Shown here piece by piece: positions 40,500-56,980 of a DNA stretch of 64,000 nucleotides. Within the stretch, counting starts at the first letter, position 1. Each line of letters begins with the position of its first letter. The notes under the pieces are model-generated. The model saw only the letters and a program-made list of their open reading frames with translations, was not told the origin of the DNA and did not search any database. The DNA is taken from NCBI RefSeq assembly GCF_016888515.1, contig NZ_JAFEJK010000003.1, forward strand, positions 1-64,000. Reading direction: 5' to 3'. Position numbers and translations under genes: made by a program. This stretch comes from Shimia biformata. GTDB lineage: Bacteria; Pseudomonadota; Alphaproteobacteria; Rhodobacterales; Rhodobacteraceae.

Positions 40500-40973
40500 T
40501 TATCTAGTGACCCGGTCGCGCTGCATTTCTGCAAGCAATTGCTCAAGCAGGGCGCGGCCCGGAGTGCTGACTTTGGAAAAGTCGATTTGGTCAATGTTTG
40601 GCTCGGGCATGCCGACGACAACCAGCGCATACATCCCGTGGCGGCCATGAACCTTGCAGCGAAAGCCATAGATGCCGGGTCGGTCGAACGAGATCACCGC
40701 CTCCGGCGCATGCTCGATATTGACCAGTTCCGCCCCCTCGGGCCACATTCCCTCAAGCGCGGTGACCGTATGGTTTCCGGTTGAATTCAGGAACCGGACC
40801 GAGTCGCCCTCTTCGATCCAGAGATAGCTTGGATCAAAACGATAGACTTCTTCCGGGGTCATTGCGTTCAGGTCGATGAGTTGGTCGATGTCGTGGACTT
40901 CGGCTTGTGCCGCAGGCAACAGCCCAAGCGACAGGATCGCGCCGAGGAAAAGGCCGGGAAGGGTAGGTTTCAT
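40500..40973 (-). CDS. Pseudoazurin-like cupredoxin
   Basis: A 157-residue periplasmic blue-copper protein with a Sec signal peptide (MKPTLPG, hydrophobic core, AQA-EV near residue 24). The type 1 copper ligands are H68 (GNHTV), C106, H109 and M114 (FRCKVHGRHGM). The spacings (38 residues between the first His and Cys, then C-x2-H-x4-M) equal those of pseudoazurin. I start at ATG 40973 after GAGGA. It lies 24 bases after the hexaheme cytochrome and so is probably its soluble electron partner. A long C-terminal tail after the Met is unusual. Confidence 0.88.
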   Translation of the reverse strand: MKPTLPGLFLGAILSLGLLPAAQAEVHDIDQLIDLNAMTPEEVYRFDPSYLWIEEGDSVRFLNSTGNHTVTALEGMWPEGAELVNIEHAPEAVISFDRPGIYGFRCKVHGRHGMYALVVVGMPEPNIDQIDFSKVSTPGRALLEQLLAEMQRDRVTR

Positions 40974-40997
40974 GGTGTTGGTCCTCAATTGGGGCAT

Positions 40998-43900
40998 TTA
41001 GCTGTCCGGCGACAATTGGGCGGTCAGCGTGGTCATGACCACGGCTTGGGGATTGGTAAGGTCCGGGTATTGCTGACGGACAAGATCGGTCACCGCTTGC
41101 GGATAGGTGCGGAACATCAATTTCACGTCAACCTGAATCGGAAAGGCGGTGTCATGGGGCAGGGCAAAGACCTCGTCCCGGAAGCCGCCAGCGGGGATCT
41201 TTGTGTCCTCCAGCATTTTCTCATACCGCCAGAAGGCAAAGCCGACCGGGTTGCCGCGCTTGTCGCCAAAAACTTTGCGGAAGAACCGCGCCTGCGAGTC
41301 GACCGTTCCGGCGGCATCAATTTTGCCGCTTTCCAGAACCTTCGCGCCGGTGACGTCGCGCACGGTCACGTCCAGCCAGACCTGCCGGAAGTCCGCAACC
41401 CCCGTGGGCAGCGCGTGGCCCGCGCCGGTATTTGAGACGCGCACCGCAAGGTCGCCGTCTGAGGTCATGCTGGCGGAAAGCTGGGCCGCGCTTTGAAGCA
41501 ATTCGATGCTCATCTGTTTGAGCGTTTCATTGCGCAGCCCGACAAGATGGTAATTGGCGCCGGTGAACTGGTGGGTCACAACATTGTCCTTGATCCGCCC
41601 GCCGTCGGTGGACCGACCGGGAATGCCCTCTCCGATCCGGGCAATATCGCCATGCATGTGGCAGTCTATGCAACTTCGATGCTGCTCGGGATTGTCAGGT
41701 GCGTTGAAGGGTGATGCTTCCCATTCGCCATAGGTGTCTACGATCACCGCTCCGCTACCCGGCGCAAATTCATTGTGGCAGGAACTACACAGGGCCGAGT
41801 CGCTGTAGAAATCCTGGCTGTAAGATTTGGCATGGGCTTCGGGTTTGGCATTGATGCCGTGCCTGCCAAGCCAACCCAGGACCGGGTTCTGGCTGTCCTC
41901 GAAAACATAGGTAGCGCGGTCCTTGATATTCACCGTGAAACTGGCATTGCCCCCGGCGGTGCGCCCCTGCGCGCTTTCCAGTTTGGTGATGCGGTGACAG
42001 AACAGACAGCCCGTGCCTTCGTCCAGATCGGGTTCGCCCCGATCCAGCGCCTCAAACAGCGACCCACCGCCCTTTTCGAACATGTGCCCGGCATCCGATG
42101 TCGCAGTCAGCCCCGACAACAGCCCCTGCGGGTGGTGGCAGCCCATGCACCACTTGCGAAACTCCTCGCCCTCGGTCGCGGCGGCGACGTCTTCCAGGAC
42201 TTTGTAATAGGGGTTTGAATCCCCCATCAAACGGTGCAGAGAATCCGCCCATTGATCGAACATTTCGGAATGGCAGGACGCACATTGGGCTGAATTGGTC
42301 CATTCGCTTTCATGCACCGTGCCGCGTTCGTCATCCAAACGCAGCCAGCTTGAAACCAGAGGCAGGTTGCTTTTGGCGGTCACGACCTCGTGCAGGTCCA
42401 GCATCATGTCGATGACCGGCGCGGGCGGATCGTCGGGATCGAGGAATTCGGCCATCCCCTCGCCGTCATGCCCCATACCTCCCTGCGTTCCCTGTATGAT
42501 GCGGATATAGTCACCGACAAAATCGCCTGCGATCATGGACGACAGGTTGCCGTGGCCGACCCTGGCATAGCGGTATTTGTCAATCTCGGTGGACTCGAAG
42601 AGATAACCGTTGGTGAAGTTGAACCCGTCGACGTGGCAGGACTGGCAGCTCATCCAGAAATCCCCGGTCATCGGGGTGTCAGGGTGGCGGTCGGTATTCC
42701 CGGTGTGAAACAGGGTCAGCCCGTTGCGCAGTTCTGGCGATAACGGGTCCGCGCCGACCAGTGACGCAAAGCGGTCGTCCAAAACCGCGACCCCACCTGT
42801 CGCGTCGCCAAGCCGGGTCACATCAAGGCTCATCGCGTTTTGAACAAACAGTTCTGCGCCTGAAACCACCAGCCCGCGCGGGTTGGCGCCGGGCAGGTGG
42901 CGCAGGATCTGGCTGGCATTGGCGCTGTTGGTGATCGCGTCGCGGGCCGACAGGTCAAAAACCAGCAGGTCCTCACTGCCCGCCAGGGTGACAAAGACCT
43001 TCGATCCATCTTCCGAGAACGCGGCATCATGCGGGTTTGAGACGATGATTGGTTTCGGCGACCCGTCGAACCGCGTCAATACCGGGTCCTTCAGGTCGAT
43101 CTGGCGGAACAGGTGCTTGCGCCTGCCGGTCACTTCGCGCTCGGCTCCGGCTGTCAGGTCCAGAACCGACAGCAACGGGAAGATGGTCGACTGGAATTGA
43201 AACAGGTGGTCGAAATTCCACAGCACATGCGGCAACCATGCCTCGGTCTCGTCAGGGCTGACGGCGATGTCGTCCAGCAGGCGGGGATGACCCTGCGACA
43301 CAAACTCGTTCCTGTCCTGTGTCACCGCAAGGTCGATCGTGGCAAGGTGGCGCAGCGGCAGCGTGGTGGCGTCATGGACCGAGACCTTGCCCACCATGGC
43401 ATGAGTTACGACAAGACGCCGGTCGGACAACAGCGCCAGACCCCGCGGGGTGTCCTCGGTTCCGACGCGATAGATCAGCCCCTTTTTCGGGTGGACGGCG
43501 ACAAGCTGGTGGTCCTCGAATAGCGCGACCCAGAACCGGTCACGGGCGGCGTCATAGACGATACCGAATGGTCGGTTGCCAACCTCGATCTCGCCCGTCA
43601 CTTTGCCCGTTTTCCAATTGGCAAAGACCACACGCCCGCCGGTCATGTCGGTGACCGCCAGTTCTCCGTCACGGCCAAGGGCAACCCGGCGGATGTCGCC
43701 GCCGATCTGGATCTCGCCCATTCGTGCGCCGGTTTCACGGTCAACCCAGCTGACCGAACCGGTCTCGAAATTGGCGCTGAACAGGGTAGAGCCGTCGTCG
43801 CTCAGAACCAATGAGCCACTTTCTTCGCCGGCAAGGGCGGCCCCGGCGAGCGCCAGCAAGGTCAGCATCAGCGCGATCAGCCATGTGGCGTAACGCAACA

Positions 43901-44375
43901 TCGACCAGCGCCAGGCGTGCCAGATCACCAGCGCCGTCAGTGGCACGGCTGGCAGAAGGTGCATCCAATACGCCAGAGCGCCAGCAAAGTCGCCACGGTT
44001 GCCGAAAAACGCCAGGAACAGTCCGCTGACCGTCAGCAGGATCAGCCCGATTTCGATAATCTGTCCGGTGCGCCGCAAGCGGGGTTTGGTCGAGCTGGCG
44101 AGCAAATCCCGATGCGCCATCCAGAACAGCACCACGACGCCGGGAAAGAACAAGAGCGACGCCAGAATGTGCAGCGCCAACGTGCTGCGCTGCAGCTGCC
44201 AAGGCAAAGCAAACCCGTCCCACAACATGATCCCGCTGATCGCCAGCCCGTAAAGCACCAGCTCGGCCGATTTGGATCGGTATCCCTGACGTTTCCAGAA
44301 GGACGCCGTTGCCAGTTTCCGTTGGAATGTTGTGCTGTTGGTGGCGTCGGTGTGCATCGCGGGCCGTGCATTCAT
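40998..44375 (-). CDS. Membrane-anchored beta-propeller / hexaheme c-type cytochrome fusion
   Basis: A 1125-residue protein. Residues about 35-185 hold four hydrophobic spans resembling a short membrane domain, then about 190-560 read as repeated YVTN-type propeller blades (SDDGSTLFSANFETGSVSWVD and similar). The C-terminal half has six CxxCH heme sites at C577, C698, C743, C790, C863 and C902, followed by an immunoglobulin-like end. Topology suggests a periplasmic redox domain anchored in the inner membrane. Parts of the heme region resemble cytochrome c554-type multiheme proteins. No ribosome binding site stands out at the ATG; a second ATG lies six codons in. Function unknown; a cupredoxin gene follows. 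Confidence 0.8.
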   Translation of the reverse strand: MNARPAMHTDATNSTTFQRKLATASFWKRQGYRSKSAELVLYGLAISGIMLWDGFALPWQLQRSTLALHILASLLFFPGVVVLFWMAHRDLLASSTKPRLRRTGQIIEIGLILLTVSGLFLAFFGNRGDFAGALAYWMHLLPAVPLTALVIWHAWRWSMLRYATWLIALMLTLLALAGAALAGEESGSLVLSDDGSTLFSANFETGSVSWVDRETGARMGEIQIGGDIRRVALGRDGELAVTDMTGGRVVFANWKTGKVTGEIEVGNRPFGIVYDAARDRFWVALFEDHQLVAVHPKKGLIYRVGTEDTPRGLALLSDRRLVVTHAMVGKVSVHDATTLPLRHLATIDLAVTQDRNEFVSQGHPRLLDDIAVSPDETEAWLPHVLWNFDHLFQFQSTIFPLLSVLDLTAGAEREVTGRRKHLFRQIDLKDPVLTRFDGSPKPIIVSNPHDAAFSEDGSKVFVTLAGSEDLLVFDLSARDAITNSANASQILRHLPGANPRGLVVSGAELFVQNAMSLDVTRLGDATGGVAVLDDRFASLVGADPLSPELRNGLTLFHTGNTDRHPDTPMTGDFWMSCQSCHVDGFNFTNGYLFESTEIDKYRYARVGHGNLSSMIAGDFVGDYIRIIQGTQGGMGHDGEGMAEFLDPDDPPAPVIDMMLDLHEVVTAKSNLPLVSSWLRLDDERGTVHESEWTNSAQCASCHSEMFDQWADSLHRLMGDSNPYYKVLEDVAAATEGEEFRKWCMGCHHPQGLLSGLTATSDAGHMFEKGGGSLFEALDRGEPDLDEGTGCLFCHRITKLESAQGRTAGGNASFTVNIKDRATYVFEDSQNPVLGWLGRHGINAKPEAHAKSYSQDFYSDSALCSSCHNEFAPGSGAVIVDTYGEWEASPFNAPDNPEQHRSCIDCHMHGDIARIGEGIPGRSTDGGRIKDNVVTHQFTGANYHLVGLRNETLKQMSIELLQSAAQLSASMTSDGDLAVRVSNTGAGHALPTGVADFRQVWLDVTVRDVTGAKVLESGKIDAAGTVDSQARFFRKVFGDKRGNPVGFAFWRYEKMLEDTKIPAGGFRDEVFALPHDTAFPIQVDVKLMFRTYPQAVTDLVRQQYPDLTNPQAVVMTTLTAQLSPDS

Positions 44376-44443: not shown

Positions 44444-44483
44444 ATTTGATTGTTTTTGTCGGAAATAGTTGGCGGCTGGGGCC

Positions 44484-45548
44484 TCATAGCCGCAGAAGGT
44501 GATTGTCAAACGCCAGCTCGGATTGCTGCATGGTCTGACCTGTCAGAGATGTAATCAACCCATTGCCGGTCGTGGCGACAAAGCCTTCGTCTGTCCCGGC
44601 AAGGCCGCATACGTCCTGGTGAACCGAAACGGTCGTGAATGTTCCGTCAGCATCAAACTCGACCACCCGGTTGCCGCGTGGAGAGGTCACCGCAACCCGA
44701 TCGCCTGATTGCGATGCGGCGACGCTGCCGACATAGCCGGACAAGTCGCGCCAGACCTGATCGGGGGCTTCCAACAGTCTCAACGGCTCTTGCAACCGAT
44801 GCGTACCGGCCAGCGGAACAATCTGCTCGGCCTCACCTTGCCATTGCATCCCGAAAATCACGGTGCCGTCCGGCCTGACGGCAAGGTGGCGGATTGAGTT
44901 GCGGCGCATGGTGGAGTCGGGTTCGACCCTGTCCAGAACCGTTCCTTCAAGCCGGCAATAGCTCAGGTTGGGTCGCATCATCGGGATGTTCAGCTTGGCT
45001 CGGCCGCTGTCGGGGTGGGTTTCGATGCCGCCATTGGCAATGACCAACGTTTCTCCATCCGGCATCAACACCATTTCATGCGGTCCAACACCGCCGGATG
45101 AGAACTCTGCGATCCGCTGGTAACCCCGTGTCACATCCCAGACGCCGATCACGCCGCGCGCGGCCTCATAGTCGTTCTCAGTGGTGAACAACAGATCACC
45201 ATCGCGCGAAAACGTGCCGTGGCCATAGAAATGGCGACCCGTGGGCGCGTCCATCCGCGCCGCGACCTGACCCGAGCGGCAGTCGATGACAAGGGCAAAG
45301 GTACCGGGGCGGCGGGCAAAGCCCACAGCTTCCGGGCGATTGGGATGGGCCGCCGCCGCGTGGCCTCGCGTCGGCAGGGGGATGCGGAAGGCTTCGCTCA
45401 GATCAGGGCGCAACCCTACCAGCACGTGATCCCCCGATGCGGTTTTTGCGGCGCTCAGAAACGCAGGGCTGCCCGCGTCGGCCCATGTCGGTACCGGGCC
45501 AAGGCCGGCGGCCAGCATTCCGGCGATGAATTGGCGGCGTGTCGTCAT
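44484..45548 (-). CDS. DUF1513-family protein (Tat-exported propeller)
   Basis: A 354-residue protein with a twin-arginine signal (TTRRQFIAG, cleavage near TWA-DA at residue 24). The rest reads as beta-propeller blades (GTFSRDGDLLFTTEND, GPHEMVLMPDGETLVIANGG). COG3490/DUF1513 proteins are regularly found next to imelysins and DUF1111 diheme proteins, as here (11 bases after the imelysin stop). Function is not established; a role in periplasmic metal handling is inferred from context. Confidence 0.82.
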   Translation of the reverse strand: MTTRRQFIAGMLAAGLGPVPTWADAGSPAFLSAAKTASGDHVLVGLRPDLSEAFRIPLPTRGHAAAAHPNRPEAVGFARRPGTFALVIDCRSGQVAARMDAPTGRHFYGHGTFSRDGDLLFTTENDYEAARGVIGVWDVTRGYQRIAEFSSGGVGPHEMVLMPDGETLVIANGGIETHPDSGRAKLNIPMMRPNLSYCRLEGTVLDRVEPDSTMRRNSIRHLAVRPDGTVIFGMQWQGEAEQIVPLAGTHRLQEPLRLLEAPDQVWRDLSGYVGSVAASQSGDRVAVTSPRGNRVVEFDADGTFTTVSVHQDVCGLAGTDEGFVATTGNGLITSLTGQTMQQSELAFDNHLLRL

Positions 45549-45559
45549 GGCCCTTGCCC

Positions 45560-46579
45560 TCAGTCCCCATCCAAAGCGTTGAAGCCTGCCGCAACTCCAA
45601 GCGCGGGGCCAAGTTCCGCGCCGATCAGACTGCGGATCTGGTCGACCGACATCTGCAAGATCTCGACCCGCAGACGGCCCTGCGGATCCGCGACCCCGGC
45701 AAGAACCGGGTCGTCCAAACCATCGGCCACCTCGAACGCGACCATGTAGAGCGCATCCAATTGCGCCTGAAGCGCAGGCGCATCCTGCGCCAGGATCAAG
45801 GCAAGGTCGCGGGTGCCCTCAAGCGACAGCCGGACCTGTCTGAGTGAACGTCCCGAGCGTCGCAATTCGGCGCGTGCCGCGCGGGGTTTCTCGAAGGTGC
45901 CAAGCGGACGGCCCAGCCGCGTGTCCGAGGTAAACTGAAGTCCCGTCGACAGAGCCTTGTAAAACTCCTGCGCGGCCTCGGCGTCGTTGCGATAAGGGCC
46001 GGTTTCCGATGGCGACAGGATCAGTTCGGCATAGCTGGCCCAATCCGTCGCGATGGCGTCGGCATTTCGGGCGATGTCGCGCGCAATGGCCTGGATCAGA
46101 TGGCAGGATGCCTCGGCTGTGCCTACCGATTGAACGCGGGCGTCAAACAACAGGAATTCCAGCGCATAAACTCCACGTGCCGCGATCGAGACCTCGGCAA
46201 AGGACGTTGCATCCATGAACGCCGGTTCGTCCGACTTCAGAAGTACCGTCAGTTCCTTAGGGGTTTTGCCACGGCTGTCCGGCCAGAAAGCGATGGCAAA
46301 GGCGCGGTCATCCTTTTCGGTTGGCCCAAAGCGCAGGTGACTCATCCGGGTCCAGGCGTCGACCGCGTCGTGAAAGGCGGCGACCAGCGCGGGCGATGTG
46401 GCCTCGCAGTTATCCTCCGCAGCCGTCTGAAGTGCGCTGGCGGCGCTCTGAAAACTGTCGACCAGCGGCAGGATGTGTCCGTTGACCGCATCTGTGTTCA
46501 ACCGCGCCAGATCAGGTTCGGCGGTCGCGGTTCCAGTCGCCAAGGCAAAAGAAATGACAAGTGCAAGTCTCTGAAACAT
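45560..46579 (-). CDS. Imelysin-family periplasmic protein (variant motif)
   Basis: A 339-residue imelysin (peptidase M75-like) protein with a Sec signal peptide ([14 protein letters not shown], cleavage near ATA-EP). The imelysin signature GxHxxE appears as GVYALEF, so the His is replaced by Tyr, unlike the intact GYHAIEF of the paralogue at 50127-51389. I start at ATG 46579, whose A is the last base of the upstream TAA stop, indicating coupling. Imelysins are linked to iron uptake, but no protease activity is certain. Confidence 0.85.
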   Translation of the reverse strand: MFQRLALVISFALATGTATAEPDLARLNTDAVNGHILPLVDSFQSAASALQTAAEDNCEATSPALVAAFHDAVDAWTRMSHLRFGPTEKDDRAFAIAFWPDSRGKTPKELTVLLKSDEPAFMDATSFAEVSIAARGVYALEFLLFDARVQSVGTAEASCHLIQAIARDIARNADAIATDWASYAELILSPSETGPYRNDAEAAQEFYKALSTGLQFTSDTRLGRPLGTFEKPRAARAELRRSGRSLRQVRLSLEGTRDLALILAQDAPALQAQLDALYMVAFEVADGLDDPVLAGVADPQGRLRVEILQMSVDQIRSLIGAELGPALGVAAGFNALDGD

Positions 46580-48111
46580 TACAAACTCTCCAAGAATGCG
46601 ATCAGGGCCGCGCGATCCGTTGCCGACATGGAAATCACCTTGTCGCGCTGCGGTTCGGCTTCGCCGCCATGCCATAGAACTGCCTCAAGAAGGCTGCGCG
46701 CCCGGCCGTCATGCAGGAAGAAACTGTGGCCATTGACCTGTTGCGTCAGGCCGATACCCCAAAGCGGGGCCGTGCGCCATTCCCGCCCGTTGGCAACAGC
46801 TTCGGGGCGACTGTCGGCCAACCCGTCCCCCATGTCATGCAGCAAGAGGTCGGAATACGGCCAGATCAGCTGAAAGCTCTGTTCGGGCTGGTCCGCCAAA
46901 CGATGCGTGACGAATTTGGGCACGTGGCAGGTGGGGCAGCCGGTTTCATAGAACATCTGCTTGCCGCGCAGGACAGTCGCGTCATCGACATCGCGGCGGG
47001 CTGGCACCGCAAGGTTGCGGCTGTAGAAGGTCACAAGATCCATGCCGGTCTGGTCGATTTCGGCGCCGCGCACGTCCTGATCCCCATGGGGCATCTCGCG
47101 ACACCGTGTCTGCCGAGCGGTGCAATCGCCCCAGGGATCGGGAAACAGTGGGGACGAGATTCCGATGTCTCCGGCAAAGGCCGCAGCCGATTGTTCGTGG
47201 ATCGAGGGCATCCCCGCCTTGTGCCCGAACCGGCCAAGCATCGGGCGTTGGAACTCCTCGGACCAGACGATATTGGCGCGGCCGGAAATGCCATCCCCAT
47301 CGGAATCCTCGGGGTCGGCTTGGGCCAGGATGTCGGCGGCTGGGATTGCTTCAAGAAGACCCAGCCCGATCATCTGCGGCGCGATGCGCGGGCTGAACAT
47401 CGCTTCGTCGCCAAAGGGGCCATAGCCGGGATCGGCGGCGGAATAGGTCGGCTTGCGCAGATGGGCGACCTCGCCGTCGGAAAGGAAGATTTCGATTTCT
47501 TCATAGCTGATATCCAGCCTGTATTCCGCCGCCATGCCTGCCAGAGCAAAGTCCTGCAACTGGCCGCCATAGACCGGGTGCGGCTTCGTGGCGTGGTATC
47601 CGTCGATGCCAAATGTCTCGCCCCCCGGCACGGACATGCGCAGGAACATCGAGATCGAATTGTCGTCCTTACCGGCAGGAGGATGGCCACGCCCGTCCTT
47701 CACGTGGCACCGCTGGCAGGACCGGGCGTTGTAAAGCGGCCCCAGCCCGTCCGACGCCTTGGTGGATGAGGGGGACGAGACCCAAAGTTTCTTGAACAAC
47801 CCGTTGCCGACTTTAAAATCCAGTTCGCGGTCAAAGGCCATGTTTGCTGACGGCTGGGAAAAGGCATCTCGGTTCGACCGCGCCCGCACAGTGGCGGCGC
47901 CGGCGCTCATTTCCTCATAAGGCTCGGCTTGATCGAACGACGTGGCCCGCGCTGTTACAGCGTCGATCCTGGCCTGTTCGGCTTCCGTTCGGGGTAAGAT
48001 GTCGAGATGGATGTCTTCCAGATCGGTTGCCCAGGCCGCCGAAGCGGCCAGGGCAAGGGTCAGGCCAAATTTACTCGGCCTCGTCCATTTTCGCTGCGTT
48101 GAGTTTTGCAT
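46579..48111 (-). CDS. DUF1111 diheme cytochrome / di-heme oxidoreductase
   Basis: A 510-residue periplasmic c-type cytochrome, with a signal peptide ending near AWA-TD (residue 29). Two heme sites are seen, CQRCH (C132-H136) and CPTCH (C392-H396), as in DUF1111 (di-heme thiol oxidoreductase) proteins. [13 protein letters not shown] is the typical calcium-like acidic loop. The ATG at 48111 lies inside the end of the bfr gene (41-base overlap in another frame). It is coupled to the following imelysin. Probably it reduces or oxidises a metal or metal chelate; inference from recurring neighbourhood. Confidence 0.87.
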
Positions 48112-48556
48112 AGTTTTCTGCGCCGATCCGGTCGTGCAGTTCCAGTTGGGTTTCGAGGAAATCGATATGGCCTTCTTCATCGGCCAGCAGGTCCTCGAAC
48201 AGTTTCATCGAGACATAGTCGCCCGCCGCTTGACAGGCCTCGCGGGCTTCCTTGTAAAGCGCGGCGGCGCTGACTTCGGCGGCAAGATCGCATTCCAGCG
48301 TTTCACGTGGCGTTTCGCCGATCTTCAGCGGGTCCAGCTTTTGCAGGTTCGGATGCCCGCCAAGGAAGATGATGCGCTCAATCAGCTTGTCGGCATGCTC
48401 CATTTCCTCGATCGATTCCTCGCGGCTTTTCTTCGCCATATGCGCCAGGCCCCAATCCTCTTGCAGGCGGTAATGCAGCCAGTATTGGCTGACGGCGGTC
48501 AGCTCATGGCGCAGCGATTTGTTGAGGTATTCTATGACTTTCTGATCGCCTTTCAT
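48071..48556 (-). CDS. bfr: Bacterioferritin
   Basis: A 161-residue iron-storage cage subunit. It opens with [15 protein letters not shown]; the ferroxidase ligands fall in HELTAVSQY (E18), SIEEMEHAD (E51, H54), the E94 region and EEGHID (E127, H130); the heme ligand is M52. GGGAGAG precedes the ATG. Its start overlaps the end of bfd by 53 bases and its end overlaps the diheme gene by 41 bases, an unusually compressed arrangement. Works with Bfd, which reduces the heme to release iron. Confidence 0.95.
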
Positions 48557-48797
48557 GGTGGCTCTCCCTGGAAATCTGTTGCTTCAATCCGCGCAGGTGC
48601 GCGGGAACTTCTAGGTTAGCATTGCCGCGCATGGTGTCGAGGAACAACGGCATGCATCCGCCGCAATCGGCGGATTTTCCGAGGGCATGATAGACCTTGC
48701 CGGGGGTGATGATCGTATTCGGGTCCGCGGTGCGCATCCAGTTGATCGCTGCGTGGATGTCGCGGTCGCGGATGTTCATACAGTGGCAAACGATCAT
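48504..48797 (-). CDS. bfd: Bacterioferritin-associated ferredoxin Bfd
   Basis: A 97-residue [2Fe-2S] protein of the BFD-like fold: C4 and C6 (MIVCHC), C45 and C48 (DCGGC) form the cluster. The fold ends near residue 65; the remaining charged tail ([13 protein letters not shown]) is encoded across the start of bfr and may carry little function. It reduces bacterioferritin so that stored iron can leave. It is first in the bfd-bfr-DUF1111-imelysin-DUF1513 run; the 188-base gap upstream holds the porin hairpin but I find no clear iron box. Confidence 0.9.
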
Positions 48798-48944
48798 TGC
48801 TGACGACCTCCAGCCGCGCTTTTCCCGAGTGATTGCCTCGGGTATATTCCGCGCAGACGGAAAAGCAAAGCAAAACTGTCGGGTAATCGTTAGGCGCGAC
48901 GCCAGGTCGCGCCAGAAATGCGGTTTGCCGTGTGGGTAGAGGTA

Positions 48945-48969
48945 TCGGGGCCACCAAATGCGGCCCCGA
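48945..48969 (-). terminator. Hairpin after the barrel protein gene
   Basis: Perfect eight-base inverted repeat TCGGGGCC / GGCCCCGA with a nine-base loop, 17 bases past the stop of the gene at 48986. No T run follows, so it may be a weak terminator or an RNA-stabilising hairpin. Confidence 0.5.
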
Positions 48970-48985
48970 CAGAAGGTTTCAGCGA

Positions 48986-50041
48986 TCAGCCGCCGAGGGG
49001 GATCACGATGTTGAGGCCCAGAACCGTGTCCTTGGTTCCAGCTTCGTCAACAAACGCCAGTGCACCGCCCAGCGTGGCGCCATTCGACAACTCATATTCC
49101 GCGCCGACCGAGACCAGGTCGGTGATGCCGGTGCTGGTGACTTCACGGCGCGCGATTGTGCCTGACAGCGACCAGTCGCCGACGTAATAGACCCCATTCA
49201 ATGTGGCATAGGTGGCGTCGTCTGCCGTTCCGCCAAACCCTTCGAATGCCGCGACCTCGGCAAAAAGATCAAAGGTTGAGCCAAAGGAATGCGCCACGGT
49301 CACGAAGCCACCGGTTTCATCCGAGACATCGCCAGCCCCTGCGCTCAGGTGGCGGGCACCGGCCCATACGCGGGTGTCGCCAAACTCTTTTTGCCACTGG
49401 ATCGAAAAGTTGTTCAACTTCCCGGTGTTGCCCGCGCCGCCATCGGTGGTCGAATTGCGGCCGCGATTGAATCCTACGGATTCGCTGAGGAAGGTGTTGT
49501 CGGCATAAAACGCGCCAAGTGACAGCGTGCCTGCCGCGCCCATGTCGATGGCGGCCAATACACCAACCTGCTCGGTCAGCTCGTAGTCTTCGGCAAGGGA
49601 GCCGCCGAAATAGCCCGCGGTTTCGTTGAAGGCCGTCCCAAACCGGGGCGACACTTTACCGACCTGAAGGGCGGTGCTGCCAAGGTCGATTTCCACACCC
49701 AGCTCATGGACATATGCGCCATAACCGGTGTCACCTGACCCGTTTTCCAGTTCCTCAACGGTCGCGCCACCGAAAATCGCAATTCCATTGCCGAAGGAAT
49801 AGGCCGCGTCAACTGAACCGATGCCATAATATGCGCCGCCCTCTCTGGCGGCGTTGTCGGAGCGTAGAATCGTTTCGTTCCCGAGTTCGATCTCACCTTC
49901 CCAGCTCAGGCCGGATTCACTGGCGCCTGCCAGACCCAGCGCCAGATCCTGGGAGTCTGTGTCCTCGGCGAATGCCTGATGAGTTGCAACAAATACGAAA
50001 GAGGCGCCAAAACCCAGCGCCCGCAGTGGGGTACTCTTCAT
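48986..50041 (-). CDS. Outer-membrane beta-barrel (porin-like) protein
   Basis: A 351-residue protein with a signal peptide ending near AFA-ED (residue 25). The mature part is Gly-, Ala- and aromatic-rich with alternating strands (YYGIGSVDAAYSFGNGIAIFGGATVEE), and ends in a short strand GLNIVIPLGG, consistent with an outer-membrane barrel of roughly 14-16 strands. Low charge and many Asp/Glu residues in loops. I do not recognise the precise family. Between the imelysin and bfd genes, it may pass iron chelates or act as an IrpA partner. Confidence 0.75.
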   Translation of the reverse strand: MKSTPLRALGFGASFVFVATHQAFAEDTDSQDLALGLAGASESGLSWEGEIELGNETILRSDNAAREGGAYYGIGSVDAAYSFGNGIAIFGGATVEELENGSGDTGYGAYVHELGVEIDLGSTALQVGKVSPRFGTAFNETAGYFGGSLAEDYELTEQVGVLAAIDMGAAGTLSLGAFYADNTFLSESVGFNRGRNSTTDGGAGNTGKLNNFSIQWQKEFGDTRVWAGARHLSAGAGDVSDETGGFVTVAHSFGSTFDLFAEVAAFEGFGGTADDATYATLNGVYYVGDWSLSGTIARREVTSTGITDLVSVGAEYELSNGATLGGALAFVDEAGTKDTVLGLNIVIPLGG

Positions 50042-50087
50042 GATACTATCCTAATTGCCCGGAGTGGTCGGGACTTTGGGGAGGGAA

Positions 50088-50117
50088 TTGCGGGACGATC
50101 TGTGGACCCTCCCGCAA
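50088..50117 (-). terminator. Hairpin after the first imelysin gene
   Basis: Inverted repeat TTGCGGGA / TCCCGCAA with a 14-base loop, 10 bases beyond the imelysin stop at 50127. No T run follows on the coding strand; it may attenuate expression into the porin gene. Confidence 0.45.
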
Positions 50118-50126
50118 CGTGGCCGC

Positions 50127-51389
50127 TTATTCGAATACGGCATCCGGGTTGTCAAGGCTGTCCGATCCCTCGACCGCGACCCCATCCAGTCCAAGCACGG
50201 TGACGACGCGTTCAATGGATTTGGTTTGGTCAATCAACCCGTTCACGCCGCCCATAATCAACGCCTCGCCTTCGGCGTTGCCTGCTTCCAGCATCTGGTC
50301 ATAGGCAAACCCGCCTTCGGCCGCCGCCTTGATCGCGCCAAGCGCATCCATGGTTGTGGCCAGCTTGCTGCGCATCTCGGCGTCCAGATCGGCGTCCACC
50401 GCAGCGACGAGATCGGACAGGGACGCGCCCGAAATCACGGTGCCGTCGATCCGGGTGTAGCTACCCAAGTAAACGTTCTGGATACCCTTGCCGTCGTAGT
50501 AATGGCTGTTGTGGGTATTGTCCGAGAAACAGTCATGCTCTTCCTCGGGATCGTTCAGCATCAGCCCAAGGCGCATCCGCTCGCCGGCCTGCTCGCCATA
50601 AGACAGCGACCCCATGCCAGTCAGCATCGCCACCAGACCTGCATCCTCGTTTGCAGTCAGGGTTGCGCGGCCTGCGCCTCCGTCAACCCACTGCGCGGCC
50701 ATCCACTCGAGGTCACTGACCAGAAGGTCGGTTGCGGCGACAAGGTACTGTGCACGCCGGTCGCAATTGCCGTTTGTGCAGTCGTCGCCCGCCGCATAGT
50801 CGGTGGCCGGACGGTTGCCTGCGCCCGAGCCGTGCCCGTTCAGGTCTTGCCCCCACAAGAGGAACTCGATGGCATGATAGCCCGTCGCGACATTGGCCTC
50901 GACGCCATCCGCTTCGTGCAGGGTTTCTTCCAGAAGCTGCGGGGTGATCTCTGATGCGTCGATGGTCTGGCCACCCAGCTCGAACGTCGGGTTTGCAATG
51001 ACATTCAGGATCGCCAGTTCGTTCTCGTCCGTCGGACCGCCATAGCCGTCATCGACATAATCAATCAGCCCCTCGTCCAGCGGCCATGCGTTTACCTTGC
51101 CCTCCCAGTCATCAACAATGGCGTTGCCAAAGCGAAACACTTCCGTCTGCTGATAAGGCACGCGGGCGTCCAGCCATGCTTGTTTTGCGGCGGCAAGGGT
51201 GGCGTCTGTCGGATTTGCAACAAGTGCATTCACCGCAGCCTGCAGTGTTTTTGCCGTCGTCAGGCTGTCGGCATATTTTGCGGCAGCTATGTCGGCGTAG
51301 GTCGTCAAAACCTCTGCCTTGGTTCCGGCCAGAGTCGCCGACCCCATGGTCAGGCTGATCAGCGTCGATGCAAGAAGCGTTCGTTTCAT
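50127..51389 (-). CDS. irpA: Imelysin / iron-regulated protein IrpA
   Basis: A 420-residue imelysin with a signal peptide (MKRTLLAST, cleavage near LAG/TKA at residue 22-24). The full GxHxxE signature is present as GYHAIEFLLWGQD near residue 168. Two long helical-bundle halves are typical, and CTNGNCDRR gives a probable disulfide. The family includes cyanobacterial IrpA, required for growth under iron limitation. An iron-box candidate lies 79-93 bases upstream (51468-51482). Confidence 0.88.
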   Translation of the reverse strand: MKRTLLASTLISLTMGSATLAGTKAEVLTTYADIAAAKYADSLTTAKTLQAAVNALVANPTDATLAAAKQAWLDARVPYQQTEVFRFGNAIVDDWEGKVNAWPLDEGLIDYVDDGYGGPTDENELAILNVIANPTFELGGQTIDASEITPQLLEETLHEADGVEANVATGYHAIEFLLWGQDLNGHGSGAGNRPATDYAAGDDCTNGNCDRRAQYLVAATDLLVSDLEWMAAQWVDGGAGRATLTANEDAGLVAMLTGMGSLSYGEQAGERMRLGLMLNDPEEEHDCFSDNTHNSHYYDGKGIQNVYLGSYTRIDGTVISGASLSDLVAAVDADLDAEMRSKLATTMDALGAIKAAAEGGFAYDQMLEAGNAEGEALIMGGVNGLIDQTKSIERVVTVLGLDGVAVEGSDSLDNPDAVFE

Positions 51390-51449
51390 TCGGGGACTGT
51401 CCTTCCGGGTTTTTTGTGCTGTTGGTGTTGCGGTGCAACCTGAGAGAAA

Positions 51450-51488
51450 TGGTCGGATATGTCAACCTGACAAAATTGGTCAGATATG
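51450..51488. promoter_or_regulatory. Iron-responsive (RirA-type) box upstream of imelysin gene
   Basis: TGA-N9-TCA, the IRO motif recognised by RirA in rhizobia, occurs at 51468-51482 as TGACAAAATTGGTCA, which is also a near-perfect dyad. It is flanked by a direct repeat TGGTCrGATATG at 51450-51461 and 51477-51488, and an overlapping TGTCA-N3-TGACA dyad. The AT-rich gap between the TonB receptor and imelysin genes is the right place for a promoter. Recognition by RirA is inferred; no rirA gene is in the window. Confidence 0.55.
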
Positions 51489-51566: not shown

Positions 51567-53588
51567 TTAGAACGTGCCGGTCACAAACAGGCTGAAGCTG
51601 CGTCCTGCTGCCTGAATCTGATTGATCGGGCGATAGGATTCATTCGTCAGGTTGGCAGCCTCGAAATTGATCCGAAGGTTGTCCGTCAGCATCGCGCTGG
51701 CCCGCAGGTTCAGCGTGGCATAGGCATCCGACTGATCTACAATTGCGCCAGTGTCGTCGCGTTGCCGGGCAGCGGATTCGCCCCGCAGGAAAACGTCCCA
51801 GGTGCCTTCGACCCGACCAGCTGTCCAGTCGCCGCGCACACCGAACGTGCCCATAAATCCGGGAGAACCGCTGTCGGCGGTTGCATACCCGTTTTCATAC
51901 CTGAACTCGCGGCGGATGGCGGCGGCGGTGACATAGGGGCGCACACCCCAACCGGCGGGGTCGAACTCGGCCCCGATCTCGGCGCCGTAGGACTTTGCGC
52001 TGTTGACGTTTTCATATTGGTATTCGTTGGGATTGCCCGTTGCGATACTGGCAATGTAGTCGCGGGAATCTGTGTAGAACAGCGTCCCGTCGAACACCAC
52101 GGCACCTGTGTTGATGCGCGCGCCGATCTCGTAATTTGTCGCCTGTTCGGGCTTCAGGTCGGGGTTGCCGATCGTGGTGCCACCGCCGCCGCTGGAGGTC
52201 AGGTAAAGCTGCGAGAGCGACGGGTAAGTGTATCCCTGGCTGATGCTTGCGCGCAGGATCGTATTGTCCGTCAACTCATGCACCAGCCCTGCAGAGCCAA
52301 GCAGCCGGTCATCGCTGTTCTTTTCGCCCGGTTGGGCCACGCCGTCGATCTCGTACCGGTCGAGAGAAGACTGCACATGGTAATACCGCGCGCCGAAAGT
52401 GGCCGTGGTCCGTGATGTAAGCTCGGCTTCGTGCTGGGCAAAGACCGACAGGGTCTGAATGCTGGCATCGCTGTAACTGCTGGATTCGGTTGGCGGACCA
52501 AATGGCGGGATCATCGAGACGGTCGACGTCTTGTAGGCCTCAAGCTGGTCGTCTTCCAGCTCAAGTCCGACAACTGTGCGGTGTCCGGGGGCAAAGTCCA
52601 TGTTGGCGCGGATATTCAAACCGCTCGTGGTCTGCATGTCATCCGACGTTGACAGCACATTCATCATGAACGGGCCGGTCGGGAAGGTGATGTCGCTTCT
52701 GTATTCCCGGTCGATGGTCTGGCTGAACAGGTTGACCTTGAAGTCAGTCAGCCAGGGGGTCAGGTCGGTGCCCTCATAAAAAACACCATATTTGCGCAAG
52801 TCGCGCTTGGGCAGGTCGATGGTGAAGTTCGGGTCGCCGGTATAGACATCGGCCGACAGGTCATAATCCTGCACCTTTGCCCCGAAATAGTGGTTGCCGA
52901 TCCGATAGCCGACGTGTCCCGACAAATCCCGGTCGGCGCGGCCCGACGGTGTCAACGTCCCCTCCGGGGTCCGGCGGTCACCCAGTTCAGACTGCGACCA
53001 CGTCAGCCGATAGTCGAAATCCCCGACCGTCCCCGCCGCTGAAAGCGAGGTGCGATAGCCCTCGTTGGCCGACAGGTAACCCGCCGAGGCCGTGATCTCG
53101 ACCGGCTTGTCCGCGCCACGCTTGGTCACGATGTTGACGACCCCGCCGATCGCCCGGTTGCCCGAGGCAACCGAAGACGGTCCGCGCACCACTTCGATCC
53201 GTTCGATCGAATCGGGCGCAATCAGGATTGGCGTGCCATAGTTGGTGTGATCCGTGATCGCCTGCCCGTCGATCATGATCGACACACGTTCGGAACTCTC
53301 GCCGCGAATCTTGATCCGTTCGATTCCGGACTCCGAGACCCGGACACCCGGCACTCCGGCCAGGATCTGCGCCACCGAACTGGGCGGCACCCGGCGGATT
53401 TCAGTTTCGCCGAGAACCTGCACAGAGGAAGGGTTGCGCATGACTTCGGTTGGCAATCCCGTGCCGACGACGATGATCTCGTCCAGGACCGTGGGCGCAA
53501 TGTCCTGGGCCGCAACCGTCGTTGCGGGCAAGGCAAGGGCCATGGTCAATGCCGACACGTTTGTCAGAAAGATGTTGTTTCGTTTCAC
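51567..53588 (-). CDS. TonB-dependent receptor (iron-complex or heme)
   Basis: A 673-residue outer-membrane receptor: signal peptide ending near VAA-QD, TonB box candidate DEIIVVG near residue 38, a plug domain with GVPGVRVSESGIERIKIRGES and IDGQAITD, VVNIVTKRG at its end, and a 22-strand barrel closing with the aromatic FSLFVTGTF. The NPDLKPEQATNYEIG stretch is typical of CirA/HmuR-like receptors. I prefer GTG 53588 (VKRNNI) after GGGGGAA; a TTG upstream is the alternative. Divergent from hmuSTUV, so it is probably the heme receptor, though the diagnostic heme His was not certain. Confidence 0.85.
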   Translation of the reverse strand: MKRNNIFLTNVSALTMALALPATTVAAQDIAPTVLDEIIVVGTGLPTEVMRNPSSVQVLGETEIRRVPPSSVAQILAGVPGVRVSESGIERIKIRGESSERVSIMIDGQAITDHTNYGTPILIAPDSIERIEVVRGPSSVASGNRAIGGVVNIVTKRGADKPVEITASAGYLSANEGYRTSLSAAGTVGDFDYRLTWSQSELGDRRTPEGTLTPSGRADRDLSGHVGYRIGNHYFGAKVQDYDLSADVYTGDPNFTIDLPKRDLRKYGVFYEGTDLTPWLTDFKVNLFSQTIDREYRSDITFPTGPFMMNVLSTSDDMQTTSGLNIRANMDFAPGHRTVVGLELEDDQLEAYKTSTVSMIPPFGPPTESSSYSDASIQTLSVFAQHEAELTSRTTATFGARYYHVQSSLDRYEIDGVAQPGEKNSDDRLLGSAGLVHELTDNTILRASISQGYTYPSLSQLYLTSSGGGGTTIGNPDLKPEQATNYEIGARINTGAVVFDGTLFYTDSRDYIASIATGNPNEYQYENVNSAKSYGAEIGAEFDPAGWGVRPYVTAAAIRREFRYENGYATADSGSPGFMGTFGVRGDWTAGRVEGTWDVFLRGESAARQRDDTGAIVDQSDAYATLNLRASAMLTDNLRINFEAANLTNESYRPINQIQAAGRSFSLFVTGTF

Positions 53589-53992
53589 AGTGTTCCCCCT
53601 GCGCCTTCGCTTGGCGCACAAAACTATTGTCCCGCACCGGTTGGCGGGGTCGTTTCTTGCCTTGCGAAATGCTGGGTGATGTCAGTTGCCCCCAGCGCGA
53701 TGCGCGGGGTCGGCGGGGGAATATATGTTTCCGACAAAAATAGTAAGATAAATTTTCCTGTTTGGGCAAAAAATGTTGTAAACTGGATACAGCTTTTCTG
53801 GGGGGCGGCCTGATCATTCCTATTTAATCGTTATATTTCAGTATTATGAGCGGAAAATTGCTTTCATGTTCTGTTCGACAAAATGGCCCCCTTGAATCCA
53901 ACTATTTTAGTCGACTATATCTCAGCACACGTCCAGCCGCTTTCGAAGCCCGCTTCGCCCAGCCAGACATCCACCCAATACGGAGACATCTG
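53589..53992. other. Divergent promoter region between the TonB receptor and hmuS
   Basis: A 404-base gap with no gene that I can support, though an in-frame extension of hmuS covers part of it. It contains an AT-rich island (53721-53850) with GTTTCCGACAAAAATAG, whose 13-base core TTTCCGACAAAAA also occurs inverted at 44453-44465 before the hexaheme gene. I found no TGA-N9-TCA box here. Confidence 0.5.
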
Positions 53993-55030
53993 GTGAAAGA
54001 CGGCAGCACGCTTACCCCCGGCGACATTCGCGCAGCGCAACAGGACAGCACCCTTCGTCCGCGTGACCTTGCGGACACCCTTGGCATCAGCGAGGCCGAA
54101 CTGGTTGCCGCGTCGGTCGGCCACGGGGGCACGCGTATCTCGCCGGAGCTGGACCACCTCATGCCCGCGCTCAATCGGCTGGGTGAGGTCATGGCCCTGA
54201 CCCGCAACGAAAGCTGCGTCATCGAAAAGGTCGGGATCTATGACAAGTTCCACTCGGGCGAACATGCCTCGATGATCCTGAACAACGACATCGATCTGCG
54301 CATGTTCCCCAAACACTGGGTACATGGTTATGCCCTGGAAACCCCGACCGCGACAGGAATGAAGCGTTCGATCCAGGTATTCGACGCGGCGGGTGATGCG
54401 GTTCACAAGGTTTTCCTGCGCGAAACCTCCGTGGTCGAGGAATGGGACGCCGTTGTCGAAGCGCTGCGACTACCCGAGCAAGGCGATACCATCGGTGTTG
54501 TCGCCCGCGCGACGGTCGAGCCGCCAAAGGTTGAGCCAGAAAAGGCCGAAAAACTGCGCGCCGAATGGGACAAGCTGACCGATACCCACCAGTTTCTGAT
54601 GATGGTGCGCCGGCTGAAATTGAACCGGCTGGGCGCCTATCGCATGGCCGGCGCGCCCTATGTCCGCCCGCTGGCGACGGACAGCGTGGCAACCCTTCTT
54701 GAGACCGCGGCTGCACAGGCCATCCCGATCATGGCCTTTGTCGGCAACATGGGCTGTATCGAGATCCATACCGGCGCCGTTGAAACCTACAAGGTCATGG
54801 GGCCGTGGCTGAACATCCTTGATCCGGGCTTCAACCTCCATCTGCGCGGTGACCATATCTCCGAGGTCTGGCAGGTGACCAAGTCCACAAAACGCGGCGA
54901 TGCGATCTCGGTCGAGGCATTTGACAAGGATGGCGCGCTGATCGTGCAGTTCTTCGGCGTGCTGGCCGATCCCGGGGCAGCGGCGCGTTGGAACGACCTG
55001 GTGGGCGCACTACGCGGGGCAGAGGCATGA
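53993..55030 (+). CDS. hmuS: Hemin-degrading / heme transport factor HmuS
   Basis: A 345-residue HemS/HmuS-family protein that binds heme delivered to the cytoplasm and releases iron. It shows the two-repeat structure: first half with NESCVIEKVGIYDKFHSG and LRMFPKHWVHGYAL, second with GNMGCIEIHTG, MGPWLNILDPGFNLHLR and a final QFFG strand. I start at GTG 53993 because CGGAG lies nine bases upstream and the first residues before it do not resemble the family; the frame itself extends 49 codons further. First gene of hmuSTUV, coupled to hmuT by ATGA. Confidence 0.9.
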   Translation: MKDGSTLTPGDIRAAQQDSTLRPRDLADTLGISEAELVAASVGHGGTRISPELDHLMPALNRLGEVMALTRNESCVIEKVGIYDKFHSGEHASMILNNDIDLRMFPKHWVHGYALETPTATGMKRSIQVFDAAGDAVHKVFLRETSVVEEWDAVVEALRLPEQGDTIGVVARATVEPPKVEPEKAEKLRAEWDKLTDTHQFLMMVRRLKLNRLGAYRMAGAPYVRPLATDSVATLLETAAAQAIPIMAFVGNMGCIEIHTGAVETYKVMGPWLNILDPGFNLHLRGDHISEVWQVTKSTKRGDAISVEAFDKDGALIVQFFGVLADPGAAARWNDLVGALRGAEA

Positions 55031-55896
55031 ACCGGCTTTCCCCGCTGTCGTGGCTGCAGGTTGGGTTGATCGGGCTTCTGCTGGCCGTTGCCGGGGGACG
55101 GCTGGCGCTGGCCGAGCCGGCGATGCGGATCGTCTCGGTAGGCGGTTCGGTCACCGAGATCGTCTATGCGCTGGGGCAGGAACATCGTCTTGTCGCCCGC
55201 GACACGACCTCTTCATTTCCGCCGGAAGCGGCGGAGCTGCCAGACATCGGCTATATCCGCCGCCTGTCGCCCGAAGGCGTGTTGTCGGTGAACCCTGACC
55301 TGATCCTGACCGAAGAAGGCGCCGGACCGCCGGAGGCAATCGAATTGTTGAAACAGGCGGGTGTTCCCGTGGTCGAAGTGCCGCTTGGCTTTGACCGAGC
55401 GGCAGTGACGGCCAAGATCACCACGGTTGCCGACGCGCTGGGGGTGGCCGAAAAAGGGGAACTGCTTGCGGCCGAGGTCGATGCCCGGATCGGCAAGGCG
55501 CAAGAGATGACGGATGGGCTGACGGGAAAGCGGGTCATGTTCATCCTGTCGCTTCAGGGCGGACGCGTCTTGACCGCTGGAAGTGACACGGCCGCGCAGG
55601 GCATCATAGAGCTGGCCGGTGCAACAAATGCCGTTCAGGGCATGTCGGGCTACAAACCCCTCTCGGACGAAGCGGTCCTTGCGGCAAACCCCGATGTTCT
55701 GCTGGTCATGGCCAATGGCGGTCGCATGGCACTGAGCGATGATGACATTCTCAGACACCCAGCGATTGCGCTTACCCCAGCGGGGCAGAAGGCGCGTCTG
55801 GTCCGCATGGATGGAATGTTGATGCTCGGGTTCTCGGTGCGCACCGGGCAGGCGGTGACCGAACTTTCCGCGGCCTTGCGGGATGCTGGAAGCTGA
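55027..55896 (+). CDS. hmuT: Periplasmic heme-binding protein HmuT
   Basis: A 289-residue class III binding protein with a signal peptide (cleavage near ALA-EP, residue 29). The opening RIVSVGGSVTEIVYALGQEHRLVARDTTS and INPDLILTEEG-like segment (VNPDLILTEE) are typical of heme/B12 binding proteins; GYIRRLSPEG marks the usual HmuT loop. It shuttles heme from the outer-membrane receptor to HmuUV. Starts within the hmuS stop. Confidence 0.92.
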   Translation: MNRLSPLSWLQVGLIGLLLAVAGGRLALAEPAMRIVSVGGSVTEIVYALGQEHRLVARDTTSSFPPEAAELPDIGYIRRLSPEGVLSVNPDLILTEEGAGPPEAIELLKQAGVPVVEVPLGFDRAAVTAKITTVADALGVAEKGELLAAEVDARIGKAQEMTDGLTGKRVMFILSLQGGRVLTAGSDTAAQGIIELAGATNAVQGMSGYKPLSDEAVLAANPDVLLVMANGGRMALSDDDILRHPAIALTPAGQKARLVRMDGMLMLGFSVRTGQAVTELSAALRDAGS

Positions 55897-55900
55897 TTCA

Positions 55901-56980
55901 ATGGTATCGACCAACGTAACATTCGCCGCAGCCGCGCACGAGCCGGGCGACCGGTCGCGGGCGGCGCGGCGTGTCCGGCTGGTGTTGATTGCGTTTCTGG
56001 TCCTGGCCGGATCCCTTAGCCTGACGACGGGGGCGTCGGGGGTTTCCCTGCCACAGGTCCTGGTCGATATTGTTGCCGGACGGGGTATGGACGCCCGGGA
56101 CCGGATCATCCTGACCGAGATCCGCCTGCCACGCCTGTTGATGGGCGGGCTGGTCGGGGCAGCTTTGGCCATGAGCGGTGCATTGATGCAGGGACTGTTT
56201 CGCAATCCGCTGGCCGATCCGGGCATCGTCGGGGTCAGTGCGGGGGCGGGGCTGGGTGCGGTCGGCGCGATCGTTCTGGGCGGGGTCGTGTCCCCCCGGC
56301 TGGCAGCGATTGCGGGGCCGCACCTGGTCTCGGTGTCGGCATTTGTCTTTGCCTGGATCTCGGTCTTTGCGCTTTACGGGATCGCCACCCGAGCGGGCCG
56401 GACATCTGTGGCGACAATGTTGCTGGCGGGCATCGCGCTGGCGGCTCTGTCGTCGGCGCTGACCGGACTTCTGGTCTTTGCTGCCGATGATGCGCAACTG
56501 CGCGACTTCACCTTCTGGAGTATGGGATCGCTGTCTGGCGCGACATGGGCAAAACTATGGGCGGCGGGCCCGTTGATGGTGGCGGCGCTTGTGGTGGGGC
56601 CAAGTGTGGCCAAGGGGTTGAACGCATTAGCACTGGGAGAAGCGGCGGCGCTGCATCTTGGAATTCACGTTCAGCGGATCAAAACCGCAACCTTCCTGAC
56701 CGTCGCCTGCGCCTGCGGCGCGGCGGTGGCCGTCAGCGGTGGGATCGGCTTTGTCGGTATCGTGGTGCCGCATTTGCTGCGTTTGATTACGGGGCCAGAC
56801 CATCGCTTCCTGCTGGTGAATTCCGCCATCCTGGGCGCGGCCCTCCTCATTCTCGCGGATGTGTTGTGTCGGGTTGTGATCGCACCTGCCGAACTGCCAA
56901 TCGGGATCATCACCGCCGTTTTGGGCGGTCCGTTCTTTCTGTGGATCCTGCTGCGTCAACGCAGTGTCGTGGATATCTGA
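55901..56980 (+). CDS. hmuU: Heme ABC transporter permease HmuU
   Basis: A 359-residue FecCD/BtuC-type permease with about ten spans. RLPRLLMGGLVGAALAMSGALMQGLFRNPLADPGIVGV near residue 85 is the family hallmark; GGIGFVGIVVPHLLRL and PAELPIGIITAVLGGPFFLWIL close it. Two ATG starts are possible (55883 and 55901); I prefer 55901, with GGAAG eight bases before and just after the hmuT stop. Confidence 0.92.
   Translation: MVSTNVTFAAAAHEPGDRSRAARRVRLVLIAFLVLAGSLSLTTGASGVSLPQVLVDIVAGRGMDARDRIILTEIRLPRLLMGGLVGAALAMSGALMQGLFRNPLADPGIVGVSAGAGLGAVGAIVLGGVVSPRLAAIAGPHLVSVSAFVFAWISVFALYGIATRAGRTSVATMLLAGIALAALSSALTGLLVFAADDAQLRDFTFWSMGSLSGATWAKLWAAGPLMVAALVVGPSVAKGLNALALGEAAALHLGIHVQRIKTATFLTVACACGAAVAVSGGIGFVGIVVPHLLRLITGPDHRFLLVNSAILGAALLILADVLCRVVIAPAELPIGIITAVLGGPFFLWILLRQRSVVDI

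Follow-up and report, generated by a model that had tools for sequence, protein, structure and literature searches.

A 2011 structural survey (PMC3143127) did not settle, in the available text, how iron is handled by imelysins and DUF1111 proteins, and the question arises again with an iron cluster on the minus strand of Shimia biformata contig NZ_JAFEJK010000003.1, within a 64,000-nt stretch (positions 1 to 64,000; hereafter the window, to which all coordinates refer). Here two imelysins, a DUF1111 diheme protein and a DUF1513 protein are combined with bacterioferritin (Bfr), bacterioferritin-associated ferredoxin (Bfd) and a porin, and are followed by a multiheme cytochrome (MHC) and a cupredoxin. 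As an explanation of the whole cluster we favor, with fair confidence, an iron-starvation-induced periplasmic iron-handling operon of the irpA type, accompanied by an MHC–cupredoxin electron conduit with an iron box of its own. The operon itself is known; the novelty lies in the cytochrome–cupredoxin pair, which is preceded by a box of this kind and has no FTR1 partner.

Gene content and conserved core of the cluster

The genes had been named in a sequence-only reading of the window, and each of them is an open minus-strand frame with a family match (the porin, lacking a Pfam match, was assigned by its model). The gene set stands as named, but the listed order is corrected to imelysin A, porin, bfd, bfr, DUF1111, imelysin B and DUF1513; the multiheme and copper proteins said to follow the set were also found, as a six-CXXCH protein and a cupredoxin. 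The starts of DUF1111 and imelysin B given below were picked for signal peptides, the mechanical frames starting further upstream.

50127–51389, minus strand: imelysin A, IrpA/ICMP type, motif GYHAIEF (PF09375, 312.8 bits; ICMP 7xrx, E 8.7e-126)
48986–50041, minus strand: 16-strand general porin (AlphaFold model and Foldseek)
48504–48797, minus strand: bfd, bacterioferritin-associated ferredoxin (PF04324, 27.7 bits, barely above the cut-off of 26)
48071–48556, minus strand: bfr, bacterioferritin (TIGR00754 equivalog, 187.3 bits against a cut-off of 125.55)
46579–48111, minus strand: DUF1111/DHOR diheme protein, probably exported (PF06537, 325 bits against 22)
45560–46579, minus strand: imelysin B, IPPA/PA4372 type, motif His absent (PF09375, 148.5 bits; IPPA 3pf0, E 1.6e-5)
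44484–45548, minus strand: DUF1513 protein (PF07433, 400.8 bits; N-terminus MTTRRQF)
40998–44375, minus strand: MHC, with membrane part, beta-propeller and six CXXCH (motif count; 1l0q propeller match; weak multiheme family matches)
40500–40997, minus strand: cupredoxin, pseudoazurin-like (PF00127, 29.5 bits against 21.2; TIGR02375, 74.6 bits, under the cut-off of 109.85)

In family profile searches the curated cut-offs were exceeded by both imelysins, Bfd, Bfr, DUF1111 and DUF1513, and searches of the S. biformata genome (G000; G and L labels denote compared genomes and loci) found two imelysins, one DUF1111 gene and one DUF1513 gene. The N-terminus of the DUF1513 protein may be read as a Tat leader, and its search against PDB sequences gave two weak matches, to WD40-type proteins. 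Recurrence of the imelysin/DUF1111/DUF1513 combination, as claimed earlier, was confirmed in relatives' loci collected for their similarity in DUF1513 (80 of 144 were retained, mostly Rhodobacteraceae to judge from the record titles), since imelysin A, DUF1111, imelysin B and DUF1513 occur in the same order on one strand in 76 of the 80. The four exceptions are L007 and L067, which are cut at a contig end, L060, which has no imelysin A match, and L079, where imelysin A and DUF1111 lie on the opposite strand.

This core operon is of a known type, and its irpA-bfd-bfr form appears to correspond to the IscR-controlled operon of R. sphaeroides. According to the published text available, the latter runs hemP-irpA-bfd-bfr-RSP_1545-1544-1543, and its cotranscription is strongly suggested by differential RNA sequencing (dRNA-seq); without iscR, RSP_1543, 1544, 1546, 1547 and 1548 were up, with RSP_1545 at 0.59, just below the paper's filter of 0.6, and the hemP promoter was bound by IscR (PMC4618611). 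Iron absence raised irpA, bfd and bfr in the same organism, as far as the text consulted reports (PMC3413700). Because the published operon already has it, the merger with bacterioferritin is known, and a claim of novelty for the bfr/bfd merger was dropped (PMC4618611, in the part drawn on here). The merged set described in the sequence-only reading is thus present but not novel in its bfr and bfd; tblastn (E 1e-4, the threshold for all tblastn counts below) detected bfr in 28 of the 80 relatives' loci, bfd likewise in 28 and a porin homologue in 7, and the porin is an optional member of the cluster. A conserved additional partner gene was sought by clustering the frames of the 80 loci, counting clusters present in at least 8, and was given up: besides the core, bfd and bfr, this gave one 164-residue frame (example length) of no recognized kind, in 30 of the 80 loci at a median of 5.2 kb upstream of DUF1513, and the remaining clusters were neighbors in at most 17 loci or frames resembling shadows of core genes.

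Neither Pfam nor NCBIfam matched the porin, and PDB sequence searches with it gave nothing useful. Its AlphaFold model, built from 8 sequences, is a 16-strand barrel (pLDDT 74.7), and the 50 best PDB matches listed by Foldseek were porins or porin derivatives, the top ones being VhChiP, Omp32 and the Rh. blastica porin (E ~1e-11).

The two imelysins differ across their families. The His of GxHxxE was present in all 76 aligned rows of imelysin A, the window included, and in 0 of 79 rows of imelysin B, whose Glu position holds E in 73 rows and D in 6. Numerous invariant acidic residues surround E83–D110 in imelysin A, and in the region of imelysin B matched to it by eye D101 alone is kept in at least 95% of rows; imelysin B has invariants of its own, WPD and a C-terminal GFNxxDGD, and IPPA 3pf0 was the sole solved relative that the PDB search found for it. 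From these alignments imelysin B looks like a separate family rather than a decayed copy of imelysin A. By M75 membership and GxHxxE, imelysin A falls within IrpA/ICMP, and by His loss and the shared operon imelysin B falls within IPPA/PA4372, a His-less GxxxxE second imelysin being the hallmark of that family in the published portions consulted (PMC3143127; also PMC9174327). The motif GVYALEF, without the signature His, had been correctly noticed and taken to suggest division of labor; this remains plausible, but not novel, since His loss is a family trait (0/79; PMC3143127, in the text available), and the view of it as a peculiarity of this locus was abandoned.

Both CXXCH of the DUF1111 protein are invariant (79/79 rows), in keeping with its DHOR/DUF1111 membership. 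PDB sequence searches with it gave nothing useful, and the VIA search with its model (pLDDT 82, without heme) listed 41 entries at Z 9.1–13.3, almost all of them diheme peroxidases or MauG, with one hydrazine synthase; the next listed match stood at 3.6. The model therefore has the fold of the diheme cytochrome c peroxidase/MauG group, which would suit oxidation at least as well as reduction of ferric chelates.

Iron boxes and the neighboring heme genes

A palindromic 19-bp matrix was trained on relatives only (sites in 38 of 74 irpA upstreams of 500 bp), with the window held out; it was built in this analysis and is not the published Iron-Rhodo-box logo. Its five best matches in the 64 kb all lie within this iron cluster:

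51466–51484, no strand assigned: iron box 1, upstream of irpA (score 22.3, top match in the window)
53730–53748, no strand assigned: iron box between the heme-type receptor and hmuS (20.5, second match)
51439–51457, no strand assigned: iron box 2, upstream of irpA (17.7, third match; 27 bp from box 1)
44445–44463, no strand assigned: iron box upstream of MHC (14.7, fourth match)
48824–48842, no strand assigned: weak iron box upstream of bfd (11.8, fifth match; alone near chance)

First-order Markov windows contained a mean of 0.12 sites scoring at least 14.7 and 0.66 sites scoring at least 11.7; therefore, the first four boxes are above chance and the bfd box by itself is not. The 19-bp palindrome of the Rhodobacteraceae IscR (Iron-Rhodo-box) regulon is found at 51466, 51439, 53730 and 44445. 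Among the relatives, TGA-N9-TCA occurs in 28 of 76 irpA upstreams (300 bp) compared with a mean of 3.8 in mononucleotide shuffles, a box of at least 14.7 lies within 1.5 kb upstream of irpA in 61 of 73, compared with 56 sites in the remaining 1.48 Mb of loci, and the 27-bp spacing of the paired irpA boxes recurs in 14 of 74. Genome-wide in S. biformata, the consensus pattern gave 27 strand-counted matches versus 3 for the reversed pattern; these represent 16 distinct places, and at two of the 13 outside the cluster a fitting gene could be named by eye. Of these two genes, one is HemP-like, with a box scoring 24.0 before it, and the other Rrf2/IscR-like, with a box of just 8.2. The earlier claim of a tie to iron is upheld by the IscR-type boxes and by the iron/IscR response of the R. 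sphaeroides counterpart in the published text available, and IscR would be the regulator of an iron response here. As a separate observation, the box of 24.0 at the HemP-like gene (contig C10 near 2813151; L103) was the highest seen in this genome, and that gene, unlike its R. sphaeroides counterpart, is unlinked to irpA.

Upstream of the operon lie heme genes:

51567–53621, minus strand: TonB-dependent heme/hemoglobin-type receptor (PF00593/PF07715; TIGR01785, 205.6 bits, under the cut-off of 316.85)
53846–57766, plus strand: hmuSTUV-like heme uptake genes (HemS, Peripla_BP_2, FecCD and ABC_tran matches)

The receptor diverges from the hmuSTUV-like genes, with the strong iron box at 53730–53748 between them. 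This adjacency could mean that the receptor, HmuSTUV and the imelysin/DUF1111 set jointly process heme, with DUF1111 freeing heme iron in the periplasm, and it would agree with the 24 of 73 relatives that carry a hemP-like motif in the 1.5 kb upstream of irpA (a box being ahead of the motif in 21 of the 24). However, the receptor had no match in any of the 80 relatives' loci and the HemP-like gene is unlinked here, for which reasons a heme-only reading of the cluster was dropped; moreover, PIBO and IPPA showed no specific heme binding in the part of the survey consulted (PMC3143127), and heme uptake genes are under iron control in any case. Joint heme processing is thus quite improbable.

The multiheme cytochrome–cupredoxin module and a proposed electron route

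MHC comprises 1125 residues, with an N-terminal membrane part, a propeller (1l0q match) and six CXXCH. H69, H88, H139 and H153 of the membrane part are invariant across three homologues, and the CXXCH at 698, 743, 790, 863 and 902 plus His987 are invariant in 7 rows. The protein is rare, being found in 3 of 292 genomes of the order (S. biformata; G097, full length, 72%; G240, C-terminal part only) and in 3 of 398 of the phylum (S. biformata and two C-terminal matches); a seven-protein multiheme profile matched 4 of the 398, including S. biformata and G470, itself a profile row. In G097, a second genus, a cupredoxin again follows MHC, on a different contig from that of DUF1513, and a box of 16.5 about 90 bp upstream of MHC is the best of that 20-kb stretch. 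From the rate in the relatives' loci, the chance of such MHC-box scores per 100-bp promoter is ~0.004 for the window and ~0.003 for G097. Because the box is present in two settings, iron control of MHC and the cupredoxin is likely, though the two promoters, being of common ancestry, do not count as fully independent cases. The suggestion that the multiheme and copper genes belong to the iron system thus draws more modest support than the operon, from the box before them here and in G097.

Gene neighborhoods of MHC relatives also bear on this. In Aeromonas caviae a full-length homologue (48%), divided over two frames, leads into an FTR1 gene; the order imelysin – membrane protein – multiheme – FTR1 occurs in two Shinella records and in G240; and Nitratiruptor (L114) shows the series OprD porin – ferritin – imelysin – small protein – multiheme – FTR1, a parallel to the porin, ferritin, imelysin and multiheme protein here. 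Among 11 distinct MHC-type loci, mostly from a plasmid collection and omitting a second Nitratiruptor record (annotated alike) and Anoxybacillus (a propeller match), FTR1 follows in 5 (L089, L110, L113, L114, L116) and an imelysin is ahead in 4; beside the multiheme relatives of G440, G470 and G611 neither FTR1 nor an imelysin was found. The membrane part of MHC matched the Shinella DUF4405 protein at E 0.002 in a single comparison, which is only suggestive of homology. Two records deserve a remark of their own: the Nitratiruptor iron island is on a 27-kb plasmid with a transcriptional repressor nearby, and the 4.9-Mb Aeromonas record NZ_AP026896.1 (L110), which is listed under plasmids, looks like a chromosome with the wrong label.

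The pair could alternatively be a respiratory or detoxifying module that sits beside the iron operon by chance. Cupredoxins often serve respiration, MHC is rare (3/292, one partial) and found in 0 of 80 relatives' loci, and in G097 it is on another contig than DUF1513. Against this stand the iron box before MHC in both genera and the occurrence of multiheme relatives next to FTR1 in Alpha- and Gammaproteobacteria and Campylobacterota, and next to imelysins in two of these, which makes a chance neighbor unlikely.

The explanation favored for the cluster builds directly on the gene content, the conserved core, the boxes, the porin and DUF1111 folds and the FTR1 and imelysin neighbors of some MHC relatives, and reaches beyond them by inference in iron binding, redox chemistry and its direction, the quinone link and the importer. 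The irpA-type operon would be repressed by IscR when iron is sufficient. On starvation, the porin would admit iron to the periplasm, where imelysin A (GxHxxE) would bind it, and DUF1111, with imelysin B as a non-equivalent partner, would shift its valence, more likely by Fe2+ oxidation with peroxide as acceptor. An ABC importer, a ferric one by our guess, might carry Fe3+ inward, and Bfd and Bfr would store and release iron inside the cell. MHC and the cupredoxin would form a conduit for electrons that links iron in the periplasm with the quinone pool. Electrons from Fe2+ could exit via DUF1111 to peroxide or via MHC/cupredoxin to the quinone pool. We lean to oxidation and a ferric ABC importer because FTR1 (PF03239) and FeoB_C (PF07664) had no matches in G000 by Pfam search (FTR1 was positive in 4 of 14 control genomes); G097 had none either. 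Electron flow through the MHC module may also be the reverse. The full path of entry, redox and storage drawn in the sequence-only reading accordingly stays conjectural, the Pfam search of the genome having found no FTR1 or FeoB permease.

Reverse flow would give a reductive version, close to that reading, in which electrons pass from quinol through the membrane part to the hemes, together with DUF1111, and on to ferric chelates, followed by Fe2+ import. Two His pairs in the membrane part resemble a b-type quinol oxidase (with putative heme binding), and the MHC matches include MtrC/MtrF-type domains, near cut-offs. But neither FeoB_C nor FTR1 had a match in the genome, which leaves it without an Fe2+ permease of either kind (the search did not extend to NRAMP and ZIP), and DUF1111 has the peroxidase/MauG fold; reduction is accordingly possible but doubtful.

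Several observations weigh against the explanation favored here, an iron-starvation operon with a boxed conduit. On the regulatory side, RSP_1543–1545 were paired with the present genes from their order and published annotation rather than from sequence, the box at bfd scores low (11.8), no box of at least 14.7 lies within 1.5 kb of irpA in 12 of 73 relatives, and a box near DUF1111 was found in just 8 of 77, whereas in R. sphaeroides such a box lies inside the operon, ahead of RSP_1545. On the biochemical side, ferric ion or heme had no specific effect on PIBO and IPPA (Xu et al., in the accessible text of PMC3143127), Foldseek of the DUF1111 model reached E 7.5e-4 with low TM (0.24–0.31 by query length), and no importer was identified for the cluster when FTR1 and FeoB_C were looked for by Pfam. 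As to the module, MHC is absent from all 80 relatives' loci and near the imelysin set in S. biformata alone, among compared genomes that include no other of the genus, and 6 of the 11 MHC-type loci (L087, L115, L118, L119, L124, L125), G097 among them, showed neither FTR1 nor an imelysin.

A more specific proposal is put forward only tentatively: MHC and the cupredoxin might form an FTR1-free, IscR-controlled electron route that sets periplasmic iron valence for imelysin-type carriers, a quinone-linked counterpart of Fet3/Ftr1 with the imelysin as iron partner. No paper on a cytochrome–FTR1–imelysin link or a boxed cytochrome–cupredoxin pair was found, in a search that missed most subscription journals. 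With their box here and their gene neighborhood in some relatives, MHC and its like are candidates for a missing electron partner of imelysin/DUF1111, a candidacy that makes the valence question testable gene by gene.

Comparison with known systems

The R. sphaeroides operon likewise runs from irpA through bfd and bfr to a two-heme 'thiol oxidoreductase', and two exported or hypothetical proteins then occupy the positions taken here by imelysin B and DUF1513. Here, in contrast, the porin separates irpA from bfd, the HemP-like gene lies elsewhere in the genome, the heme-type receptor lies upstream and MHC–cupredoxin downstream. P. aeruginosa PA4370–PA4373 and V. cholerae VC1264–1266 (ICMP/IPPA) have, as here, a GxHxxE imelysin, a DUF1111-type partner and a His-less second imelysin, but they are Fur-regulated, by another regulator than here, and the sections consulted mention no ferritin or multiheme cytochrome (PMC3143127).

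EfeUOB and EfeUOB-M share with the cluster a periplasmic M75 protein and a heme peroxidase partner. Membership was rejected, FTR1 (EfeU) being absent from the genome; nor is there the cupredoxin–M75 fusion of EfeO, both M75 proteins matching PF09375 alone. EfeB is DyP-type (PMC9174327), whereas the operon's partner here is diheme peroxidase-like; in the portions available, EfeB is called a DUF1111 member in PMC3143127 and placed in the DyP superfamily by PMC9174327.

FtrABCD and P19-FTR1 are iron transport systems that likewise work with a cupredoxin and redox proteins; the present genome has no FTR1 match. A further likeness to the module is seen in the FTR1-linked loci of Shinella, Nitratiruptor and G240, whose multiheme part is homologous to MHC, with five CXXCH and GAGHxLPTG in common; Nitratiruptor, like the window, has a porin and a ferritin ahead of the multiheme gene. 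Here, by contrast, the membrane part is fused to the cytochrome, a propeller and a sixth CXXCH are added, a cupredoxin follows and no FTR1 gene is adjacent. Should the tentative FTR1-free route hold, the imelysin – membrane protein – multiheme – FTR1 loci would be its sister or ancestor, and porin and ferritin would recur with an MHC-type route in an unrelated phylum.

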